A stretch of 32,923 nucleotides of DNA. It comes from Methylophaga sp. Its GTDB lineage: Bacteria; Pseudomonadota; Gammaproteobacteria; Nitrosococcales; Methylophagaceae. The stretch is from NCBI GenBank assembly GCA_024636315.1, contig JAGXHJ010000060.1, positions 1 through 32,923 on the forward strand, in the 5' to 3' direction. Of this stretch, positions 21,339 to 23,932 are shown piece by piece. The notes under the pieces were generated by a model. It had not been told where the DNA came from and ran no database searches. It worked only from the letters and a program-made list of their open reading frames with translations. The translations under genes were made by a program, and so were the position numbers. How positions within the stretch are numbered: the stretch's first letter is position 1; each line of letters opens with the position of its first letter.

Positions 21339-21818
21339 TCAACTAACATTAAATGTGCGCCGAACAGCCCGCAAAAATGCATAGACAATTGGCCATAGCA
21401 CGGTTGTTGTTACGGCAGGTAACCACACGTACCAATTGGTGAAATTTGATGTCATTAATACCGATGGAATATTAACCACCAGCACAAAGGTCATAATACT
21501 CAACGCTTGTTGCCACAACGGATATTGGCGTAGCTGTAAATGGAAACGCAATATCAAATAGATAACAAACGCATAAGAAAACGCCTCAACGCCTAAAGAA
21601 CCGCCCATAAGCACATCGATTAACAGACCAACGCACCAAGCATAACCAACACCAACACGTTGGGGTAAGGCCATCGCCCAATAAATGAGTGTCATCAATA
21701 CCCATTCAGGTCTCGCGAATCGTAGATTATCAAGGAGCGGCACCAGCATTAACAACATGGCAATAATGATGCTAATAACGATAACACTACCACCCTGTGG
21801 CGCTCTAGTAGTGGCCAT
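21339..21818 (-). CDS. mreD: Rod shape-determining protein MreD
   Basis: A 159-residue inner-membrane protein with about five hydrophobic helices, part of the MreBCD elongasome. Typical features are RPEWVLMTLIYWAMALPQRVGVG near the N-terminus and the following DVLMGGSLGVEAFSYAFVIYL segment. The ATG overlaps the mreC stop by one base (TAATG). MreD is thought to modulate the MreC-PBP2 interaction. Confidence 0.94.
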   Translation of the reverse strand: MATTRAPQGGSVIVISIIIAMLLMLVPLLDNLRFARPEWVLMTLIYWAMALPQRVGVGYAWCVGLLIDVLMGGSLGVEAFSYAFVIYLILRFHLQLRQYPLWQQALSIMTFVLVVNIPSVLMTSNFTNWYVWLPAVTTTVLWPIVYAFLRAVRRTFNVS

Positions 21819-22684
21819 TAACTCGCATCCTCAGGCGATTTTAATTCAATTTTTTCTTGTTGATTTTCTGTGGGGAGCACTAATAACACTTCCCGACTGG
21901 TATCTAATTCAGCCGCGGGTTTAACGGCAATATCAGCAAATGCTTTTCCTTGAGGAAAATGAATAGCGATTACTGTGCCGACAGGATAGCCGACAGGAAA
22001 ACGTCCACCTAGTCCGGATGTCACCAATACATCACCTACGCGTACGTCAGCATTGTGTGCTAAATGTTCTAATTGCAAGGGTTCGCCCATTCCTCGTCCA
22101 ATGGCAACGGCTCGTAAACCATTACGATTGATCTGAACAGGCAAACCATGACTAGGATCTGTCAACAACATTGCTCGACTAGAGAAACTATTTACTTCAG
22201 TGACTTGCCCCATTACACCATGTGCATCTAATACTGGTTGACCACTAAAAACACCATCACGTAATCCTTTATTAAGCACCACCTGTTGAGAAAAGGGATC
22301 AAGGTCTATCGACAGTAACTCCGCAACTAAAACTCGTTCCGTCAGACGAAAAGAAGAACCTAATAATTCGCGCAGTCGCGTATTTTCTCGTTCCAAATTC
22401 TGTAATTTTTGCAATCGAACATTATTTAATAAATTAGTAGCTTCTAAAGCCGCATTTTGTTCTTTTAATTCGTCTCGATTTTCAAAAAAGTCATTCATCC
22501 ATTCGCTGGCATCAGTAGGAAAAGAAGCAACAACTTGAATCGGATAAACAAGAGTAGATAACGCACTTCGTGTCGGTGAAAAATAATCCATTCGTGTATC
22601 TAGAAAAAACAAGGCTAACGATGCTATTAACGCTAATAGCAATCGGGCATTCAGTGACGGGAGATGGGCAAATAAAGGTTTGAT
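21818..22684 (-). CDS. mreC: Rod shape-determining protein MreC, apparent ATC start
   Basis: A periplasmic scaffold of the elongasome that binds and activates PBP2. A membrane helix is followed by a coiled coil (about 70-110, NRDELKEQNAALE to NTRLRELLG) and the double beta-barrel domain ending in VGDVLVTSGLGGRFPVGYPVG. The conserved N-terminus KPLFAHLPSL, comparable to E. coli KPIFSRGPSL, lies in frame upstream of every ATG, GTG or TTG codon. Only ACT-ATC separates it from an in-frame TAG at 22690-22688. The best start is therefore ATC at 22684-22682, giving 288 residues. GGA lies nine bases upstream. A TTG at 22642 would remove the conserved tail. A strong terminator separates it from mreB. 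Confidence 0.9.
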   Translation of the reverse strand: MKPLFAHLPSLNARLLLALIASLALFFLDTRMDYFSPTRSALSTLVYPIQVVASFPTDASEWMNDFFENRDELKEQNAALEATNLLNNVRLQKLQNLERENTRLRELLGSSFRLTERVLVAELLSIDLDPFSQQVVLNKGLRDGVFSGQPVLDAHGVMGQVTEVNSFSSRAMLLTDPSHGLPVQINRNGLRAVAIGRGMGEPLQLEHLAHNADVRVGDVLVTSGLGGRFPVGYPVGTVIAIHFPQGKAFADIAVKPAAELDTSREVLLVLPTENQQEKIELKSPEDAS

Positions 22685-22698
22685 AGTCTATGTTCCAA

Positions 22699-22739
22699 AA
22701 ACTAAAAAACCTTTACGACAGTTAGTGTGCCGCAAAGGT
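22699..22739 (-). terminator. Intrinsic terminator between mreB and mreC
   Basis: On the minus strand ACCTTTGCGGC (22739-22729) pairs with GTCGTAAAGGT (22719-22709), an 11-bp stem with two G-T wobbles and a 9-base loop. TTTTT, then AG and another T-run follow directly. It lies 25 bases after the mreB stop and just before mreC. No new promoter is visible after it, so downstream genes need read-through. Confidence 0.85.
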
Positions 22740-22764
22740 CTAAAATGTAGCGCTAAGTAATAAC

Positions 22765-23932
<1,168 letters not shown>

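Follow-up and report, generated by a model that had tools for sequence, protein, structure and literature searches.

The window, by which we mean the whole stretch of 32,923 nucleotides analysed, comes from a draft genome of Methylophaga sp. (113 contigs, 88% complete) and carries mreB, mreC and mreD in this order. The product of the middle gene is MreC (Pfam PF04085, E 1.9e-40; TIGR00219 match from residue 6), with the barrel-core domain present. Below, AUH stands for AUU, AUC or AUA, NUG for AUG, GUG or UUG, and SD for Shine-Dalgarno. The features are:

22765..23811, minus strand: mreB, upstream of mreC, with an ordinary ATG start at 23811
22707..22741, minus strand: intrinsic terminator hairpin and T-rich tail in the mreB-mreC gap, 14 pairs, kept in relatives
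22694..22696, minus strand: GGA, weak SD-like element of mreC, 9 bases to the ATC, duplex -3.3 kcal/mol
22688..22690, minus strand: in-frame TAG two codons 5' of the ATC, which rules out a longer N-terminus
22682..22684, minus strand: ATC, putative initiation codon of mreC, in the same column as the E. coli mreC ATG and as ATT/ATC in 44 of 44 Methylophagaceae
22640..22642, minus strand: TTG, first in-frame NUG of mreC, 14 codons 3' of the ATC, pick of the automatic caller
21818..22684, minus strand: mreC, 288 codons from the ATC (22684-22682) to TAA (21820-21818)
21339..21818, minus strand: mreD, its ATG overlapping the mreC stop (TAATG)

The start codon of mreC

The minus strand from 22700 reads ttttGGAacaTAGactATCaaacctttatttgcc, and the segment 22700-22640 reads ttttGGAacaTAGactATCaaacctttatttgcccatctcccgtcactgaatgcccgaTTG. 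Re-reading this strand confirmed the coordinates that the initial annotation had given for the region. GGA stands at 22696-22694, with nine bases between it and the ATC. The central claim, that the conserved KPLF N-terminus lies 5' of every in-frame NUG and that ATC occupies the initiator position, also stood. After the TAG (22690-22688) the stop-to-stop frame opens T-I-K-P-L-F-A-H-L-P-S-L, there is no ATG, GTG or TTG between this stop and KPLF, and no in-frame ATG, GTG or TTG is able to supply the conserved MreC N-terminus. Starting at TTG 22642 would remove the conserved KPLFxxxPSLNxR segment.

Aligning the mreC starts of relatives, as had been suggested, gave ATC or ATT and never ATG in all 44 distinct Methylophagaceae genes; specifically, the codon before K-P-L-F is ATT in 24 and ATC in 20. 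A sequencing or assembly error as the source of the ATC can be rejected because ATC recurs in a relative of 94% identity (G006), another relative (G005, 88%) has ATT and the whole family carries one or the other. The second codon upstream of the initiator is a stop in 27 of the 44. Codon-position entropy is 0.72/0.24/1.25 bits over mreC codons 1-14, the wobble of protein-coding sequence, and 1.32/1.29/1.32 bits over codons -6 to -1, where no wobble is seen. Third-position wobble thus sets in at the initiator codon, which argues that coding begins exactly there. Taken together, conservation, coding signal, stop position and SD spacing strongly support an ATC start for mreC in the window.

Two Methylophagaceae loci (L008 and L039) have mreB-mreC gaps of 344 and 332 bases as compared to the usual 76; both retain AUC as the start. 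One draft genome of the family (G023, contig 64) carries a second, divergent mreC (L214, 47% identity) starting with ATA; it may be contamination (6%).

The neighbouring genes served as controls. At the same loci as mreC, mreB was without a nearby NUG in 0 of 124 cases. For mreB of the window the ORF caller takes GTG 23898, yet the conserved 18-residue stretch begins at ATG 23811. All 109 parsed mreD genes start with ATG, GTG or TTG; seven more, unparsed due to an alignment offset, are outside this count. infC, the gene for IF3, is the textbook AUU/AUC-start gene; in the window genome (L239) and in Methylophagaceae relatives (L218-L238) it starts with ATC after AGAGGA, with no NUG available.

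Distribution of AUH starts in Gammaproteobacteria

The ATC start is confirmed, and starts of the AUH kind are spread far wider than the initial annotation knew. In the initiator column of 196 distinct mreC loci, ATT was counted 71 times, ATC 57, ATA 11, ATG 15, GTG 2 and TTG 2; the remaining codons belong to loci with N-terminal extensions or shifts of one to three codons. At the level of 102 families, 55 have AUH only, 8 have AUH, though some member may have a NUG upstream, 30 have NUG only and 9 are mixed or unclear. The start is therefore AUH in about 63 families (about two thirds) and AUG, GUG or UUG in about 30, but these proportions are rough since the class-wide draw favoured MreC resembling the two queries and under-sampled the most divergent families. 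In 121 AUH cases the frame contains no NUG between the AUH codon and the upstream stop, a distance of 6 codons at the median; downstream, the first NUG comes after a median of 15 codons. Orthologs with ordinary starts, namely E. coli mreC with ATG and the other ATG, GTG or TTG loci, have their initiator in the column that AUH occupies elsewhere. mreC of L308, whose MreB and MreC we take to be Pseudomonas-like, starts with ATC. An SD correctly spaced at 7-11 bases precedes the AUH codon and is weak in Methylophagaceae.

Some loci have no clear mreC start: L203/L204 (UAU at the column), L057/L120 (CUA), L098/L101, L339/L348 and L346 (GUU). For L203 and L204, from genomes of the same order (G040 and G039), the UAU stands near or just after a stop and a GTG lies six codons in; a search of four other genomes of their family gave no mreC matches.

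Mapped on a MreB+MreC tree (FastTree, 160 rows, with long branches), the AUH/NUG label changes at least 15 times, with 10 changes forced by supported branches. As the tree has no fixed root, these changes are counted with no distinction between gain and loss of AUH.

There are two ways in which the ATC might not be an initiator. It is very improbable that the true start is a downstream TTG, ATG or GTG near codon 15, with the upstream in-frame stretch being an untranslated conserved element. Automatic ORF calling does take TTG 22642, but codons 1-14 of mreC show synonymous-type variation with amino-acid conservation, the E. coli annotation has this segment translated from ATG, and the position of the downstream NUG varies from 2 to 25 codons while the SD precedes the AUH codon. 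Readthrough or frameshifting into the mreC frame from upstream, with ATC as an internal Ile codon, is if anything still less credible. The choice between ATC and ATT, taken alone, fits a conserved Ile codon as well. However, the upstream stop differs in position and codon among close relatives, the codons upstream of AUH carry no coding signal, other lineages have ATG, GTG or TTG in the column of AUH, and a correctly spaced SD is present. On codon-position entropy and the variable stops, all three candidates (downstream NUG, readthrough and frameshift) were rejected.

SD strength and the mreB-mreC terminator

The energy of the duplex with the anti-SD differs between the two kinds of start. Its median is -7.25 kcal/mol in AUH families (n=64) and -2.7 kcal/mol in NUG families (n=35; -2.55 for the 18 families with an aligned NUG); Mann-Whitney P at family level is 1.7e-8 for all NUG and 2.1e-7 for aligned NUG. 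An energy of -5 or lower is found in 58 of 64 AUH families as compared to 12 of 35 NUG families. A paired test aware of relatedness gave 4.5 pairs for, 0.1 against and 2.5 with no difference, which is the expected direction but, with too few pairs, not significant alone (median p 0.125). Outside Methylophagaceae, positions -12 to -7 of AUH mreC are purine-rich. A few mreC genes have a strong SD despite a NUG start (L333, L185, L199 and L317). Since AUH pairs with a strong SD and AUG with a weak one, this see-saw suggests that selection keeps the net rate of mreC initiation low. Methylophagaceae are the exception, with AUH, a weak SD (median -3.3) and a terminator in front; inside this family the see-saw fails unless another element compensates.

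Other nucleotides around the start were noted as well. In AUH mreC outside Methylophagaceae, a pyrimidine stands at position -2 in 88% and at position -1 in 84% of cases, a strong preference, as compared to 70% and 42% for mreB and 67% and 8% for mreD at the same loci. Position +4 is usually A, as the codon after AUH tends to be one for Lys or Asn.

The terminator that the initial annotation placed between mreB and mreC is present and conserved in the family, with a stem of 14 pairs instead of 11. It consists of a GC-containing stem followed by a T-run. Under a strict criterion, 28 of 40 distinct Methylophagaceae gaps contain such a hairpin, as compared to 0.1% of shuffled sequences; several further gaps appear to have the hairpin with a mismatch. 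Outside the family only 4 of 112 gaps have it, so a role as class-wide companion of the AUH start was rejected. Judged from this distribution, the terminator is a separate, local layer, restricted to Methylophagaceae in our sample. The earlier idea of two layers keeping MreC low is plausible, but the histories of the layers differ, one being class-wide and the other confined to Methylophagaceae. The transcription of E. coli mreBCD was reportedly analysed by Wachi in 2006. For Legionella, a monocistronic mreB mRNA and a terminator closing the mreB gene have been described (PMC4630621).

Proposed control of MreC level

The conserved AUH start suggests that MreC production is kept low already when translation is initiated. 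In the mechanism we propose, translation of mreC would begin from a near-cognate codon of the AUH type, in the window AUC, with which fMet-tRNA pairs at two of three bases. This codon, together with the SD and the short spacer, would fix MreC synthesis at a low rate. MreB, by contrast, would be translated from an ordinary AUG. It is probable that mreD translation is coupled to that of mreC in the window because its ATG overlaps the mreC stop, and the TAATG junction would pass the low rate on to MreD. mreD touches or overlaps the mreC stop in 72 of 109 loci, therefore a weak mreC start should lower MreC and MreD together. Too much MreC would be made from AUG with a strong SD, and too little from AUH with a weak one; in Escherichia and the other lineages that switched to AUG the SD sequences are weak, and in Methylophagaceae the terminator may add a transcriptional reduction. 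AUH would then be kept over most Gammaproteobacteria because net mreC initiation is under selection. We consider this explanation as a whole, in which the AUH start and the SD set low synthesis of MreC and probably MreD, to be the probable one.

From the sequence data we infer fMet initiation at AUC, a low protein level, IF3 discrimination and mreD coupling. That MreC is kept low follows from the weakness of the codon, the see-saw and data on E. coli, where there are about 180 MreC copies, surplus MreC deforms the cells, a defect partly cured by MreD, and a proposed model has MreC switching on PBP2-RodA (PMC7793260).

There is some possibility, though we lean against it, that the mreC AUH codon is an IF3-sensing switch like that of infC, so that MreC synthesis would follow the level of IF3 and wall elongation would be linked to growth state or to the capacity for translation. 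Repression of non-canonical starts by IF3 has been demonstrated with infC and with the sigR GUC start (PMC5472188), so IF3 sensitivity of mreC is expected and IF3-dependent control, by analogy, likely. Moreover, infC and mreC of the window genome share AUC, and AUH is kept in most families. Several lineages with AUG and a weak SD would keep the low level and not the sensitivity to IF3, therefore IF3 sensing cannot be obligatory or indispensable. Slightly more doubtful is that AUH is a historical accident without present regulatory use, kept only because mutating the codon to AUG in a single step would do harm where the SD is strong (a fitness valley). The see-saw and the repeated switches in separate lineages would agree with it, but it leaves AUH with a weak SD in 44 of 44 Methylophagaceae unexplained.

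AUH initiation is already known; the gene and the breadth appear to be new. pcnB of E. coli starts with AUU and its product is harmful in excess, which makes it similar to mreC, where AUH spans most sampled families. infC, which starts with AUU in E. coli and with AUC both in Streptomyces (PMC5472188) and in the window genome, is, like mreC, a core gene with a long-conserved AUH and an SD upstream. It is autoregulated by its own product, whereas for MreC no part in choosing start codons is known, and an effect of IF3 on mreC would therefore run in one direction only. In sigR of Streptomyces, where repression of the GUC start by IF3 has been shown (PMC5472188), a non-canonical start sets the ratio of two partner proteins, as is proposed for mreC; it differs in the codon, the phylum (Actinobacteria) and the anti-sigma partner. 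Belinky et al. 2017, who analysed AUG, GUG and UUG, described compensation of weak GUG/UUG starts by a strong SD and a single switch to AUU among 61,358 ancestral AUG starts (PMC5622118); the compensation is similar in mreC, but there AUH is the majority state. No literature linking mreC with a non-AUG start was found in the open-access full text searched.

AUH starts have been regarded as oddities found in infC and a handful of further genes. Gene callers normally disallow them, therefore MreC is likely annotated with a truncated N-terminus wherever such a start is used. We put forward, tentatively and as a rather unlikely extension, that mreC is the second class-wide IF3-sensitive AUH gene beside infC, where discrimination of the initiation codon would meter the elongasome activator MreC and the coupled MreD in most Gammaproteobacteria and the fidelity of the ribosome would directly set the rate or geometry of wall elongation. 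The mreC start allows the response of cell shape to initiation fidelity (IF3) to be tested directly. As the majority state in a core morphogenesis gene, it is a natural comparative system for the persistence of weak starts, and E. coli, with its AUG mreC, is the exception in start codon.
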